NCBI GenBank assembly: GCA_900315425.1
Contig: OMZA01000014.1
Span: forward strand, 1 to 41,404
From: an uncultured Eubacteriales bacterium
GTDB lineage: Bacteria > Bacillota > Clostridia > Lachnospirales > Lachnospiraceae
DNA: 41,404 nucleotides
Reading direction: 5' to 3'
The notes under the pieces were generated by a model that saw only the letters and a list, made by a program, of their open reading frames with translations, made no database searches and was not told the origin of the DNA. Of the stretch, positions 5,527 to 15,609 are shown piece after piece (positions within the stretch are counted from its first letter, which is position 1; the number at the start of each line of letters is the position of its first letter). The translations under genes were made by a program, and so were the position numbers.

Positions 5527-6816
5527 CTAATTATTGTCATATATATCTTCCGTAAATGTCAGACTTCCTCTGTATCCTGCATATGTACGATTAAAGACTA
5601 ATCTCTCATTCATTGGAAAAGCGCCTAAAATAAATTGTATGTCCTTCTCAAGCGCAATTTCCCTTTCGTTGCTACTTCCAACCAACAGTGTAATTTCCTT
5701 TTCCTCCTCTCGTATCGCCTTATTAATCTCATACTGGTCTGTCAGAAAAAGAATCTTGGGTGGTGCCGCATACTCTAAGTCTTCAATCTCATGTATGATT
5801 CTCTCCTTGTCCTCCTGCCTGAAAATCGGTTCTGAAATAATGACAAGCACAGGGGTGAAGCTATAATCATTTGCAAGATATCTGGTAAAGGCTACCGCAT
5901 TATTCGCATCTGCAACAACAGCAAACCTTTTCCAGCTTACAACTCCGATTGCCTGTCCTAAATAACTGTATACATAATCCTCTTCCTGTTCAATCACAGC
6001 TTGCACTAATTTTTCATCCAATTTAAGTGCATCTGCAACTTCCCTTACAAACCTTGTTGTGTCTGTTGCTCCCACAAAAAGCCCGGGTATTCTGATACTT
6101 GGCACACCAAATTTTTCCTCAAACTTCTTTGCCGGTCCTTTAAACAGCCAAGGATTTACAATGATATTCAGTGCTGCCGCAGAACATTTTCTTATATCCT
6201 CCATATTTTGATGCTTCGTAAAAAATGTATTTACCTTAAGCCCAAGTCTGGAAAGGATTCTGTCAATCTCCTCCAAAGCACCACTCCAGAACGGATCATG
6301 ATAAGGTACAATTCCAAATATATTCACAAGCTTTTCATCTTTTGGAACATCCTTCTCAATCACCTGATCAATCATTGTATTCCATACGATTTCATATCCA
6401 AGGTTGCTGTCCCCTGCAAAACCGGGTGTTTCAATCGGATATACCTTATATCCCTGTTCTGTAAATTCATTTGCAACACTTACAATGTCATCACCGATAA
6501 TTCCAGCAGTACATCCGGTAAGCACAAAATATGCATCTGCATCAATGATGTCAATTGCTCCCTGTATGGTAGTTCGAAGCTTATTCGTTCCGCCAAATAC
6601 CACCTCTTTTTCAAGCATATTACTGGACGGGAGTGACACGCTGCTTACAAAACAAGAGCTTTTATGTCCGGACTGTCCCTGATCCGCAGCAGTCGTCTGC
6701 ATACAGCAGCCCGGCCCCGAATGATAAATCGGACAAACCTTATCGATGGCACCTAGTACCGAATTGATTCCCGCAAGGACACATCCACCCTTTGGATTTT
6801 CCATAATCTGTGACAT
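5527..6816 (-). CDS. NifK-like subunit 2 (nitrogenase component 1 family)
   Basis: A 429-residue member of the oxidoreductase/nitrogenase component 1 family (PF00148). It is of beta-subunit type, short at the N-terminus compared with NifK. The three beta-side P-cluster cysteines are placed as in NifK: C12 (KGGCVLAG), C37 (HSGPGC) and C102 (LTGCTAGIIGDD). The familiar EKEVVFGGTNKL segment is present. The start codon is 1 bp downstream of the NifD-like gene 2 stop, so the two form a translationally coupled pair. It likely forms an alpha2-beta2 complex with gene 2. It could be catalytic or a NifEN-like scaffold for cofactor maturation; sequence alone does not decide. Confidence 0.85.
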   Translation of the reverse strand: MSQIMENPKGGCVLAGINSVLGAIDKVCPIYHSGPGCCMQTTAADQGQSGHKSSCFVSSVSLPSSNMLEKEVVFGGTNKLRTTIQGAIDIIDADAYFVLTGCTAGIIGDDIVSVANEFTEQGYKVYPIETPGFAGDSNLGYEIVWNTMIDQVIEKDVPKDEKLVNIFGIVPYHDPFWSGALEEIDRILSRLGLKVNTFFTKHQNMEDIRKCSAAALNIIVNPWLFKGPAKKFEEKFGVPSIRIPGLFVGATDTTRFVREVADALKLDEKLVQAVIEQEEDYVYSYLGQAIGVVSWKRFAVVADANNAVAFTRYLANDYSFTPVLVIISEPIFRQEDKERIIHEIEDLEYAAPPKILFLTDQYEINKAIREEEKEITLLVGSSNEREIALEKDIQFILGAFPMNERLVFNRTYAGYRGSLTFTEDIYDNN

Positions 6817-6817
6817 A

Positions 6818-8272
6818 TTAGTTTTCTCCCTTCGTTATATATTTAAATGCATCTTCCATATACCACGAATCTTTATAAGGCAGCTTAACATGTTTTGCCA
6901 GCTTTTTATTGAAGCCCGGATTTTCCAACTGATCTGCGATTTTATTTCCAAGGAATAGTAATCCATCATATCCCATAGTTGGCCTTTTTCCATCCAGAAC
7001 ATGTGTAGTTGGAATTCCCAGCTTGGCGGCCCATTCCGGAACTCCGATAAAAGCATCCGGCTTTAATTTATTTAACAGATTTACCTGTTCAAAAGGTTGC
7101 ATATTAGCAATGTCTACAACATAATTCTTATGAATGTCATTTAAGTACTCTATATCAACCTGTGCATCTTCATCATAAGTTGGAGTTTCCAGACCTACAA
7201 GCTCCATGCCAAAATCATCAATAAGTGCTGCTGCTGCAAACGATCTTCCGGTACCTCCACAAATAAATACCCTTTTTCCCTGCAATCTTTCCTTAAGCTT
7301 AGCCACTAATGGTTCAATTCTTTCATGTTCTCTTTCTATAATTTCTTCCACTTCTGCTTCTTTTCCAAAAACCTTAGCAATACCCCTATACCACTTATCC
7401 GTATTGCGAATTCCAATCGGCATAACCGTATGTGAATATGGAATCTGATAATCTTCCCACAAGGTCTTCATGAATTCATCAGCAAACACCTTACATATAG
7501 ATGTAGAAGCCTCTGCTGCCGAAATTGTCTTAATCTTTTCCAATGAGCTATAAAATGGAATATAATTTACCTTTGCACCGATCAGATTTAACATTCTCTC
7601 CATTTCCTTCTGATCTGCATAGCTTACCGTAGTCGGTGCAAACAGATTTATAAGTCCCTTTTGTTTTTTCACCTGTTGCTTTTTTAATATGTACTTATTT
7701 ATGGAAATAAATGCAGCATCAAAACCTGAAGCACATATTTTAGATTTAAACCCTTCACAGTGAATCGGAACCATAATTGTATCGGGATATTCCGTCTGCA
7801 AATCCGCTGCTATTGCATCAATATCATCGCCAATGATTCCGGACGCACATGACGCATAAATAAAAGCAAGCTTTGGATTATATCGCTCCACAGCTTTTTT
7901 CACAGTCTCTCTCAGTTTCTCTTCTCCACCAAACACAACACTTTTTTGATCAATATTTGTCACAAACAATCTTGGATTTTTTACATTCTTTATTCCTCTG
8001 TGAATCTGTCCCACACGATACATGTCAACAGCCATAATTGCGCAACCTACACAGCCTTGAGGCGAATGTGAAATAAATACAGAATCCTCAAGAGACATAA
8101 GTGCTGCCATACTGTTAATTTGCTGACATTGCAAGCCTTGTGCAAAGCTTCTGTCTGCCCTCTTAAGGCAACCCTTCTTATAATTTTCTGCTACCTCTTT
8201 TCCGGTTGTACCTAAATCATTAATCCTGCCCGGTCTGCTTTCACGCACACCGGAATACTTCACATTTGACAT
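6818..8272 (-). CDS. NifD-like subunit 2 (nitrogenase component 1 family)
   Basis: A 484-residue alpha-type subunit. P-cluster ligand candidates are C49 (GLQCQQ), C74 in HSPQGCVGC and C142 in ASCASGIIGDD. HCEGFKSKICASGFD matches the NifD SCEGF region. By eye alignment, Cys260 (STSICKVFADEF, 15 residues before YQIPY) falls exactly on the FeMo-cofactor ligand Cys275 of NifD. The region matching NifD His442 (GIPTTHVLDGKRPTMGYDG) has Leu at that position, so the second cofactor ligand is not conserved there, though a His lies two residues earlier. It is coupled to the downstream NifK-like gene 2 and preceded by the ThiF-like gene at 7 bp. Not a canonical NifD; substrate unknown. Confidence 0.85.
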   Translation of the reverse strand: MSNVKYSGVRESRPGRINDLGTTGKEVAENYKKGCLKRADRSFAQGLQCQQINSMAALMSLEDSVFISHSPQGCVGCAIMAVDMYRVGQIHRGIKNVKNPRLFVTNIDQKSVVFGGEEKLRETVKKAVERYNPKLAFIYASCASGIIGDDIDAIAADLQTEYPDTIMVPIHCEGFKSKICASGFDAAFISINKYILKKQQVKKQKGLINLFAPTTVSYADQKEMERMLNLIGAKVNYIPFYSSLEKIKTISAAEASTSICKVFADEFMKTLWEDYQIPYSHTVMPIGIRNTDKWYRGIAKVFGKEAEVEEIIEREHERIEPLVAKLKERLQGKRVFICGGTGRSFAAAALIDDFGMELVGLETPTYDEDAQVDIEYLNDIHKNYVVDIANMQPFEQVNLLNKLKPDAFIGVPEWAAKLGIPTTHVLDGKRPTMGYDGLLFLGNKIADQLENPGFNKKLAKHVKLPYKDSWYMEDAFKYITKGEN

Positions 8273-8279
8273 AATCTCT

Positions 8280-14371: not shown

Positions 14372-14384
14372 TGTTTTGTCCTTC

Positions 14385-14744
14385 CTATTCAAATAATTTT
14401 TTTATTTTTATATACTTTATTAACTGTTCTACTGATTCCTCAATAATTCCCGGGATTTCGTAGCTTTCAATCCCGCAGGCTGCTGCCATGTCAGTTGCTC
14501 CACTTCCGATTCTGCTGACTAACAGGTATTTACAATCCATCAGCTTTTCCAGATTTGCCTTGAGCTTCTCATTATCATGATTCCCTGTTTCACATACAGG
14601 TGTTACACTTCTTTTTTCCAGAAAATGCATCTGTTCCTCATCATCTATTCTATAGATATAAAAAACCTTTGCCCTTCCAAAATGCGTGTTCACTACGATT
14701 CCATCACTGGAAGCCACCGCAATTTTATATTCTTCCTTATCCAT
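14385..14744 (-). CDS. NifX-like cofactor-binding protein
   Basis: A 119-residue protein of the NifX/NifB-C-terminal family (PF02579). It opens with [28 protein letters not shown] and contains [24 protein letters not shown], the typical second half. In many diazotrophs this domain is fused to the NifB C-terminus; here it is a separate gene whose start overlaps the end of the NifB-like gene by 8 bp. It probably receives or stores the NifB product before transfer to a DK-like complex. No Cys-rich insertion, unlike the second family member at 9220-9660. Confidence 0.85.
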
Positions 14745-15609
14745 GTGAGAACGTCTCCTTCACATTCAGTCGTCTCTGATAAATCTGATCGCCAAACTCT
14801 GATTTTCCCGGTACACCAACTGCATCTGCCCTGCAATGCTGACAGTGTCTGAATACATCAATATATTTCGATGCCCTCATCCGTGCCCGGTCAATCTCTA
14901 TACATGTAGGTGCTTTATAATCTTTTAACTCATGCTGCGGTATCAAAGGTATGATATTGTAAATACTGGCACCAGCCTCTTTCACAGTTTTTGCAATTTC
15001 TTCGATATGATCTCCATTTATCTCTGGCACAAGCACTGTATTCACCTTTATTGTAATTCCGGCAGCGGCAACCTTGCGAATCCCCGCCAACTGATTTTCA
15101 ATTAGAATCTTCGCACCTTCCACTCCGTCAATTTTCTTACCGTGATAGATTATGTATGCATTTAGCTTATTCTCTATTTCCGGGTCTACTGCATTTACCG
15201 TAACAGTAAGTGAATCAATTCCAACGCGAATAACATCCTCTGCTCTTTCATTTAGCAGTAGTCCATTTGTACTCATACATTTAATTAAATCAGGAAATTT
15301 TTCTTTCACGATTTCAAATGTCTTTAATGCATTATCCGATGCAAGAGTATCACCAGGACCGGCAATACCTGCCACTTTAATATCCGGACATATTTCTAAA
15401 GCTTTTCTTAGTATATCTTCACACTCTTCCGGCTTTAAAACTTTCGATGTAACACCGGGTCTTTCCTCCACATCATTAATTGTTCGGTCACAAAATTTGC
15501 AGGCAATATTGCATCCGGGACTTACGGGCAAATGTATTCTGCCGGCATTATTTTTATGTCCACCAAAGCACGGATGAGAATTTTGCAAATCTTTATATGT
15601 ATTACTCAT
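14737..15609 (-). CDS. nifB: NifB-type radical SAM cofactor synthase
   Basis: A 290-residue radical SAM protein. It carries the NifB signatures: N-terminal HPCFGG (C14), the radical SAM triad C33-x3-C37-x2-C40 (CNIACKFC), ERPGVTS at about 49-55, and a C-terminal HCQHCRADAVG. NifB fuses two 4Fe-4S clusters with a SAM-derived carbide and a sulfur to make NifB-co (8Fe-9S-C), precursor of all nitrogenase cofactors. Its presence implies that at least one DK-like pair holds such a complex cluster. It is the short, single-domain form without the NifX domain, which is encoded by the next gene. The start has AGGTG 5 bases upstream. The tRNA-like element lies just before it. Confidence 0.92.
   Translation of the reverse strand: MSNTYKDLQNSHPCFGGHKNNAGRIHLPVSPGCNIACKFCDRTINDVEERPGVTSKVLKPEECEDILRKALEICPDIKVAGIAGPGDTLASDNALKTFEIVKEKFPDLIKCMSTNGLLLNERAEDVIRVGIDSLTVTVNAVDPEIENKLNAYIIYHGKKIDGVEGAKILIENQLAGIRKVAAAGITIKVNTVLVPEINGDHIEEIAKTVKEAGASIYNIIPLIPQHELKDYKAPTCIEIDRARMRASKYIDVFRHCQHCRADAVGVPGKSEFGDQIYQRRLNVKETFSHG

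Follow-up and report, generated by a model that had tools for sequence, protein, structure and literature searches.

The window analyzed here is the entire 41,404-nucleotide contig OMZA01000014.1 (C42 in our numbering) of assembly GCA_900315425.1, from an uncultured Eubacteriales bacterium of the Lachnospiraceae, whose genome comprises 2.05 Mb in 52 contigs and is about 96% complete. Its minus strand carries, between about 3.8 and 16.1 kb, an operon of nearly contiguous genes with two pairs of nitrogenase-like D and K subunits (D1K1 and D2K2), a CysK-like protein and a tRNA-Cys-like element in its leader. The initial annotation of this DNA had recognized NifB, NifH, two NifDK-like pairs, two NifX-like proteins, a cysteine synthase and sulfurtransferases as one minus-strand unit, and searches with Pfam and NCBIfam models confirmed this. 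The true span proved to be wider, reaching upstream to about 16.12 kb and downstream to position 3812, and it includes the tRNA-Cys-like element (15658–15727), which was absent from that annotation.

In the order of transcription, the operon begins with an open reading frame (ORF) for a Cys-rich leader peptide (16033–16122; 6 Cys in 29 codons, found by reading of the sequence and by a scan), followed 3' by a predicted terminator hairpin with a U-run (15973–16010, the hairpin itself at 15981–16010), a small DUF2292 protein of 43 amino acids (15806–15937; PF10055, 64.8 bits), a second predicted hairpin with a U-rich tail (15749–15803) and the tRNA-Cys-like leader element (TLE; called by ARAGORN, 39 bits with the Rfam tRNA model), which has a GCA anticodon, the discriminator A and an A-G mismatch in the anticodon stem. 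The next genes encode a NifB/MarB-like radical S-adenosylmethionine (SAM) protein of 290 amino acids without a NifX domain (14737–15609; PF04055; TIGR01290, 264.2 bits against a cut-off of 343.65), the NifX-like cluster-binding protein 1 (14385–14744; PF02579, 62.1 bits), a NifH/MarH-like reductase component (13523–14371, with the likely ATG at 14371 and the ORF open to 14392; TIGR01287, 465.6 bits, over the cut-off) and a divergent CysK-like O-acetylserine sulfhydrylase of the PALP family (12513–13508), which matches TIGR01136 with 333.2 bits, just under the cut-off of 344.15, and solved cysteine synthases with at most 261 bits. Then follow the MarD-type alpha subunit D1 (11035–12501, ORF open to 12510) and the MarK-type beta subunit K1 (9735–11033), both with PF00148, and the NifX-like protein 2 (9220–9660; PF02579, 45.4 bits), which contains a Cys-rich insertion absent from NifX-like protein 1.

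The distal part of the operon consists of a rhodanese fragment (9044–9211; PF00581, 19.8 bits, below the cut-off), an N-terminally short ThiF/MoeB-like E1 protein (8280–9029; PF00899, 254 bits), the second alpha-type subunit D2 (6818–8272) and beta-type subunit K2 (5527–6816), both with PF00148, a GNAT acetyltransferase (4980–5486; PF13527/PF00583) and a rhodanese-TtcA-like sulfurtransferase (3812–5080; PF00581 and PF01171; PRK10696, 197.6 bits, below the cut-off). The ThiF family match reported earlier stands, although the gene is broken: across 8280–9211 of the minus strand the frame of the separate rhodanese fragment stops just before the shortened ThiF, whose best NCBIfam model, PRK08762, aligns below its cut-off from position 144 of 387. 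An intact rhodanese-ThiF copy is present in one relative (L036), and the broken gene could reflect decay or an assembly error.

According to our analysis, the first pair is, judged by its sequence, a member of the methylthio-alkane reductase (Mar) superclade. Among solved structures, D1 matched the Rhodospirillum rubrum MarD (9fmg) with 307 bits (next family, 117 bits), and K1 matched the MarK of the same organism with 373 bits (next, 93 bits). An alignment of 163 D-type proteins, with residues numbered after R. rubrum MarD, shows that D1 keeps the cofactor ligands Cys270 and His429 and the Arg428 of Loop I, as well as Gln74, Trp195, Phe199 and His375, and all six P-cluster cysteines are kept in D1K1 (Cys66, Cys91 and Cys158 of MarD; Cys32, Cys56 and Cys121 of MarK). 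A partner of the NifB type, as expected of MarB, is present, with its TIGR01290 score of 264 bits below the equivalog cut-off. The D tree comprised 78 rows, with 14 near-identical rows omitted; it came from a quick search and has some long branches. D1 and R. rubrum MarD fell into one clade of 46 rows with a support of 100 in the Shimodaira–Hasegawa-like approximate likelihood ratio test (SH-aLRT), and the Arg428-His429 pair is found in all 46 rows. Within it, the D1 subclade (22 rows, support 97) is the sister of a 24-row subclade that contains R. rubrum MarD (support 98). A further D-type clade (L047, L050, L051, L089, L091, L092, L107–L109) keeps His429, has no Arg428 and carries Met, Val or Trp at position 195; on these sequence features, it is another uncharacterized family of group IV.

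The resemblance of the gene set to a minimal nif set, with two DK-type pairs beside NifB, NifX and NifH, raises the alternative that the operon encodes a group IV nitrogenase, one pair acting as NifDK and the other as NifEN. A divergent nitrogenase has been proposed in a heliobacterium (PMC9147875), D2 is without the Mar His loop, and the best NCBIfam model for K2 is nifE, albeit with 135.7 bits against a cut-off of 505. However, the approximately unbiased (AU) test rejected a single clade of NifD with the D1 subclade (p = 1.7e-56) or with D2 (p = 3.1e-113), so that the grouping of the DK-like proteins inside true nitrogenases, named in the initial annotation as the outcome that would speak against its proposal, was not what the trees gave. 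The positions of NifD Gln191 and His195 are occupied by Trp and Phe in D1 and by Cys and Phe in D2, and the operon stands behind a Cys attenuator. The earlier statement that nifE, nifN and nifV are lacking held for the whole genome, in which these four are the only PF00148 proteins and no NifV scored over the cut-off. Nitrogen fixation as the first reading was rejected, as neither D protein groups with NifD and no NifEN or NifV was found in the genome, and we regard a group IV nitrogenase as very improbable. Loci L274–L278 of five other family genomes (G054, G144, G082, G050 and G170) contain NifH and two DK-type pairs whose best matches are NifD and NifK, and look like ordinary nif genes.

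The two pairs, which the initial annotation had not told apart, are not equivalent. D2 has 30% identity to D1; it keeps the three P-cluster cysteines and Cys270, whereas Trp195 is replaced by Cys and His375 by Thr, and the Arg428-His429 loop is absent from it and from the D2-clade rows aligned. K2 keeps all three P-cluster cysteines and matches MarK with 237 bits (next, 105 bits). D2 forms a clade of its own (SH-aLRT 99–100), placed beside Mar with a support of 89 in one tree and unresolved in the other. All D2-clade rows aligned share a PTTH motif, which stands two residues before the position that we take to be that of nitrogenase His442. A replacement of His442 by the histidine of this motif was set aside, as the latter lies two residues nearer to the N-terminus than that presumed position.

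The absence of the Mar axial His loop, together with the retained Cys270, could be explained if D2K2 were a scaffold similar to NifEN, on which the cluster for D1K1 is completed or stored. In the family sample of 200 genomes, which includes the source genome, a close D2 was seen in eight of the 14 genomes with a D1 ortholog (one of these D1 being a fragment) and in none without D1, and two genomes outside the sample, G490 and G542, hold both, which agrees with a scaffold. Nevertheless, six of the 14 D1 genomes show no D2, although one of them is 72% complete and another (G068) has a K2 remnant. In genome G047, locus L034 represents a separate TLE-NifB-NifX-NifH-CysK-D2-K2 operon without D1K1 in it; genome G161, in which no D1 was found, carries a member of a D2-type subgroup (L049). 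The three P-cluster cysteines of K2 argue in the same direction, if weakly, because Rahnella NifN lacks two of them while Nostoc VnfN keeps three. A scaffold appears rather unlikely to us, and D2K2 is more likely a second reductase. In G068, which contains D1K1 and no visible D2K2, the remnant of K2 is 52 residues long (L029, position 13329) and suggests a loss of the second pair.

Relatives of the operon were traced in two samples. Of the 200 family genomes, 32 matched D1 at an E-value of 1e-30 or better, 13 of them with at least 66% identity over nearly the full length, and ordinary nitrogenases are among the weaker ones. A search of contigs yielded at least 235 relatives, of which the best 80 loci (83–94% identity) were used for all neighborhood counts; in the relatives, the names of several genes, D2 and NifB among them, are based on phmmer matches to the window proteins rather than on family models. 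These 80 loci are labeled Lachnospiraceae, Butyrivibrio, Lachnobacterium bovis, Ruminococcus, Treponema, Bacteroidales/Paludibacteraceae and others, and the named close relatives are mostly records labeled as rumen or gut Lachnospiraceae and their kin, including isolate records of Lachnobacterium bovis DSM 14045 and of several Butyrivibrio. The spread of such similar sequences over three phyla is indicative of horizontal transfer, with the reservation that labels of metagenome bins can err. The complete plasmid pTS2 of Treponema saccharophilum (L223) carries NifB-NifX-NifH, two DK pairs of the Mar superclade, NifX, GNAT and an ABC importer; both of its D proteins have the Arg-His pair and are more distant (61% for D1). 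An IS30 transposase lies between NifH and the DK genes of this plasmid.

The linkage of CysK, for which the initial annotation had suggested a neighborhood survey, is conserved: among the 64 loci whose sequence extends at least 3.9 kb upstream from D1, CysK is located directly next to D1 on this side in 60, and farther genes of the upstream stretch are NifH in 54, NifB in 53 (within 4.6 kb) and NifX in 52. Downstream of D1, among 70 loci with at least 4 kb, K1 is present in all 70 and the second NifX-like protein in 53, whereas D2 was found in 12 of 57 loci with 9.5 kb downstream.

The Cys attenuator proposed earlier is real as anatomy, since a leader ORF with Cys codons precedes a terminator and the arrangement recurs in relatives; its action would follow by analogy with cysS leaders (PMC8632094). 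Short Cys-rich ORFs with a terminator behind them were sought in 109 sequences; the scan, which covered Cys codons only, gave 31 matches, 13 of them with a Shine-Dalgarno sequence (SD). All 13 stand in front of the CysK (12) or NifB (1) of the operon; among these loci, L030 and L171 look like the same genome and L163 and L166 are near-identical. The 18 matches without SD include that of the window and that of L148, both in front of the operon, while most others are scattered. The window leader was not flagged for SD by the scan rule, and it is homologous to the SD-positive leader of a sister genome (L025). Of 200 shuffled versions of the whole terminator stretch, nine folded equally well. For the second hairpin (15749–15803) the fold z-score was -5.99 and none of 200 shuffles was as stable; similar hairpins, read by eye, occur in relatives, and it is possible that this structure is a second attenuator. 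The Rhodobacterales attenuator uORFC-8-2 of cysS, as described in the part of PMC8632094 concerned, shares with the window a terminator that comes after a leader ORF containing Cys codons, yet it belongs to another lineage and to other genes, and the window leader has six Cys codons.

The second leader element is called as tRNA-Cys by ARAGORN directly upstream of nifB. It is the lowest-scoring of the 41 tRNA matches in its own genome, which has a canonical tRNA-Cys elsewhere (C25:4960–5030). Searches with a covariance model gave nine strong matches (86–99 bits) in the 200 family genomes, followed by a gap down to 57 bits and ordinary tRNAs; a class sample of 391 genomes added one strong match outside the family (G490, 79 bits), ahead of nifH and D1K1. 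These searches scored 25 candidates per genome in the family and 12 in the class, which makes absences weak. In the best 80 loci 24 elements were found, all with nifB and on its strand, corresponding to 23 of the 53 loci that show NifB and enough upstream sequence; at L155 the called NifB ORF overlaps the element. Loci L119, L120, L121 and L259 are among those of relatives with the element.

Over 31 elements, 10 of 21 base pairs change on both sides (0 of 500 shuffles); this count scored as a pair the anticodon-stem position that is an A-G mismatch in 31/31 elements, so that no pairing ever occurs there. The anticodon is GCA in 30 of the 31 elements, position 33 is U in 24 and C in seven, and an encoded CCA follows in two. 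The discriminator is A in 16 and G in 15, and never U73. The U73 base and the GCA anticodon are reported as major determinants for cysteine charging by the bacterial cysteinyl-tRNA synthetase (CysRS; PMC9976931), and T73 is found in the housekeeping tRNA-Cys of the source genome and in 27 others (loci L070, L232–L258). A housekeeping tRNA-Cys in the operon was set aside in view of the canonical gene elsewhere in the genome and of U73 in 0/31 elements. A conserved hairpin 3' of the element is weakly supported (a stem of at least 5 bp in 15 of 31, where 500 shuffles gave 7.3 on average and 15 at most) and is not claimed here; pairing of the element with the downstream SD, assessed by eye, was not consistent.

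Some elements precede other genes. In G153 the element is followed by DUF2292 and a SAM synthetase gene and then by a radical SAM protein, importer genes, NifH and an Isr-like DK; at its loci L260 and L264 this Isr-like operon, behind the element, comprises SAM synthetase, DUF2292, two radical SAM proteins, Ssu-type importer genes and a phosphorylase-superfamily protein (PF01048). The element of G014 precedes a SAM synthetase (metK) gene and an importer, and that of G150 a gene of the M20 peptidase family with an importer, after a Cys/Met pyridoxal phosphate enzyme. On these observations, the element appears to be a leader RNA of sulfur-scavenging operons and an unchargeable copy of tRNA-Cys, which makes it a candidate tRNA-mimic regulator of sulfur scavenging. 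That CysRS binds it is a guess, and the element could also mark a site of processing, be a relic or serve as a tRNA with some other use. The pseudo-tRNA tRNA-Other of Bacillus cereus is likewise a tRNA-like RNA said, in the passages concerned, not to function in translation (PMC3399842); the element of the window differs from it in being conserved ahead of sulfur operons, as a leader on their coding strand.

The sulfur metabolism of the carriers bears on the product of the reductase. A sulfite reductase (PF01077) was not found in the source genome at its completeness of about 96%, while it was detected in 96 of the 200 family genomes: in two of 14 D1 genomes versus 94 of 186 others (Fisher p = 0.011), and in three of 22 Mar-superclade genomes (G040 being assigned from its residues) versus 93 of 178 others (p = 0.0005), both values ignoring kinship and completeness. 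The match in one D1 genome, G151, whose D1 is a fragment in a 72% complete assembly, is short and lies at a contig end. These numbers touch on the alternative that the operon encodes an Isr-type sulfonate reductase, which would take up isethionate or taurine and release sulfite. IsrBHDK works in this way in Rhodobacter capsulatus and has been reported from intestinal bacteria (PMC11423573), and like the system studied here it is group IV nitrogenase-like, serves sulfur assimilation and is associated with an Ssu-type importer, such as the one that lies near the operon. In contrast, IsrD is reported in the part of that source concerned with one P-cluster cysteine and with neither cofactor ligand (no equivalents of Cys275 and His442), and IsrB as not NifB-like, whereas the window has a NifB-like protein and D1 and D2 keep three P-cluster cysteines and Cys270, the comparison being made with this published description of IsrD. 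Two Isr-like operons among the relatives (G029 and G153) also differ in these residues, as their D proteins have one of the three P-cluster cysteines and no equivalent of Cys270, and both genomes contain sulfite reductase. At the position of MarD Cys66, these two proteins have Asp in our alignment, and Arg is reported for IsrD (PMC11423573). The pattern fits a release of sulfite by Isr and of sulfide or thiol directly by the present system, two Isr-like genomes being few. Because no sulfite reductase was found and the Isr residues are absent, a sulfonate substrate is less likely; an Isr identity was rejected on the residues, and the chance that the operon works as an Isr-type reductase seems to us slight.

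Based on these results, we propose that the operon probably represents an anaerobic sulfur-scavenging system, in which one or more ATP-driven reductases of C-S bonds would provide sulfide or thiol for cysteine synthesis. NifB would build a cluster of the [Fe8S9C] type, which the NifX-like proteins probably carry, and NifH would drive electrons into D1K1 with ATP. As its residues and phylogeny suggest, D1K1 would then reductively cleave the C-S bond of an organic sulfur compound, and the dedicated CysK, given its linkage, may join the released sulfide or thiol to O-acetylserine. D2K2, with its different active site, would most likely act as a second reductase on another substrate or in a following step. 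At a shortage of charged Cys-tRNA, ribosomes stalling on the Cys leader would open the operon, and the tRNA-Cys-like element may add a second, as yet unproven, control. The initial annotation had proposed a nitrogenase-like enzyme wired to cysteine synthesis and acting on an imported sulfur compound. The wiring is supported by the Mar type of D1K1, the linkage of CysK, the Cys attenuator and the tendency of Mar-superclade genomes to be without sulfite reductase. Import of the substrate by the nearby importer did not find the same support, since among 46 relatives with both flanks of 9.5 kb an Ssu-type importer was found within 12 kb in 12 by the strict score rule or 18 by the loose one, a count that varies with the rule; PatB was found in 29, and PatB or the strictly scored importer in 38.

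Several observations weigh against a cysteine-directed scavenging system. The product of R. rubrum Mar is methanethiol, which goes into methionine (PMC12552129), whereas CysK needs sulfide for cysteine. The pocket of D1 differs from that of R. rubrum Mar, with MarD His194 replaced by Ile and Cys73 by Ser. The CysK of the operon is not the sole one, as the genome has four further CysK-like genes, one of them with an internal stop (a CysE-like protein is also present, below the cut-off); 11 of the 64 relatives, mostly labeled Bacteroidales, are without NifB within 4.6 kb upstream; and two of the 14 D1 genomes do show a sulfite reductase match, in an association uncorrected for kinship. A further alternative is a methionine-salvage Mar as in R. 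rubrum, converting methylthio compounds to methanethiol and methionine, with CysK being incidental or making S-methylcysteine. The position of D1K1 in the Mar superclade with its hallmark residues agrees with it, and so does the occurrence of the same family of tRNA-like elements upstream of SAM synthetase genes in two relatives. However, the linked gene is CysK in nearly all relatives, the leader peptides are Cys-rich (in a scan for Cys only), and the replaced His194 and Cys73 speak against the R. rubrum type of activity; we consider methionine salvage rather unlikely.

The scavenging system proposed here can be compared with the closest known ones. MarBHDK of R. rubrum (PDB 9fmg, 9d9u; PMC12552129) shares the NifB-NifH-D-K set, the P-cluster cysteines, Cys270, the Arg428-His429 loop and one superclade with D1, which belongs to a sister subclade and has His194 and Cys73 replaced; in addition, the window has CysK, two NifX-like proteins, a second DK pair, a Cys attenuator and a tRNA-like leader. 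The MarHDK-like genes of group IV-A that adjoin type I mlp clusters (PMC10418091) likewise stand beside sulfur genes, and CysK is named in a figure legend; no SCMT/Mlp gene was recognized among the window proteins scanned, and the passages of that paper concerned make no mention of a second DK pair or leader RNAs. No description of the operon or of its tRNA-like RNA was found among the papers listed from the open PubMed Central literature (subscription journals lying mostly outside this scope), the nearest printed work found being PMC11423573, PMC10418091 and PMC9147875. As far as can be judged from sequence, the enzyme part is a variation on a known type, in which a reductase operon of the Mar superclade is tied to cysteine synthesis and has a second, divergent DK pair, while the leader element may represent a novel sort of regulator.

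Mar and Isr have shown that relatives of nitrogenase cleave C-S bonds in photosynthetic bacteria (PMC12552129, PMC11423573). The locus and its relatives suggest that rumen and gut anaerobes from three phyla use the same chemistry to supply their synthesis of cysteine, often in genomes in which a sulfite reductase was not found; if true, the enzymes could be a source of methane, other hydrocarbons or sulfide in the guts of ruminants. As a nitrogenase-like clade without the known cofactor-binding loop of Mar, D2K2 may be useful for understanding how clusters are held, and the tRNA-like leader offers a candidate, open to testing, for a new way of controlling genes by imitation of tRNA-Cys. A more speculative joint scenario, which we consider doubtful as a whole, would see the tRNA-Cys mimic as a new class of cis-acting RNA in the Mar and Isr-like operons of gut Lachnospiraceae. 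Its GCA would be kept for CysRS or another reader of tRNA-Cys and the lack of U73 would make it unchargeable, so that it might sense the balance of tRNA-Cys and CysRS and turn on C-S reduction at cysteine shortage, with D2K2 as a new family taking the thiol from D1K1 to sulfide for CysK.

Upstream of the operon, also on the minus strand, the neighboring sulfur genes comprise a separate unit for an Ssu/Tau-type ABC importer with a binding protein, an ATPase and a permease (19026–21835; PF09084, PF00005, PF00528) and a PatB-family C-S lyase (22235–23410). Of the importer and C-S lyase assigned here earlier, the latter holds firmly (TIGR04350, 445 bits, over the cut-off of 340), while the binding protein of the importer matches SsuA_fam with 75 bits, below the cut-off. 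An ABC ATPase, an FtsX-like permease and a DUF4418 protein (16710–18969, minus strand) adjoin the operon, and this trio is also located near the operons of several relatives.

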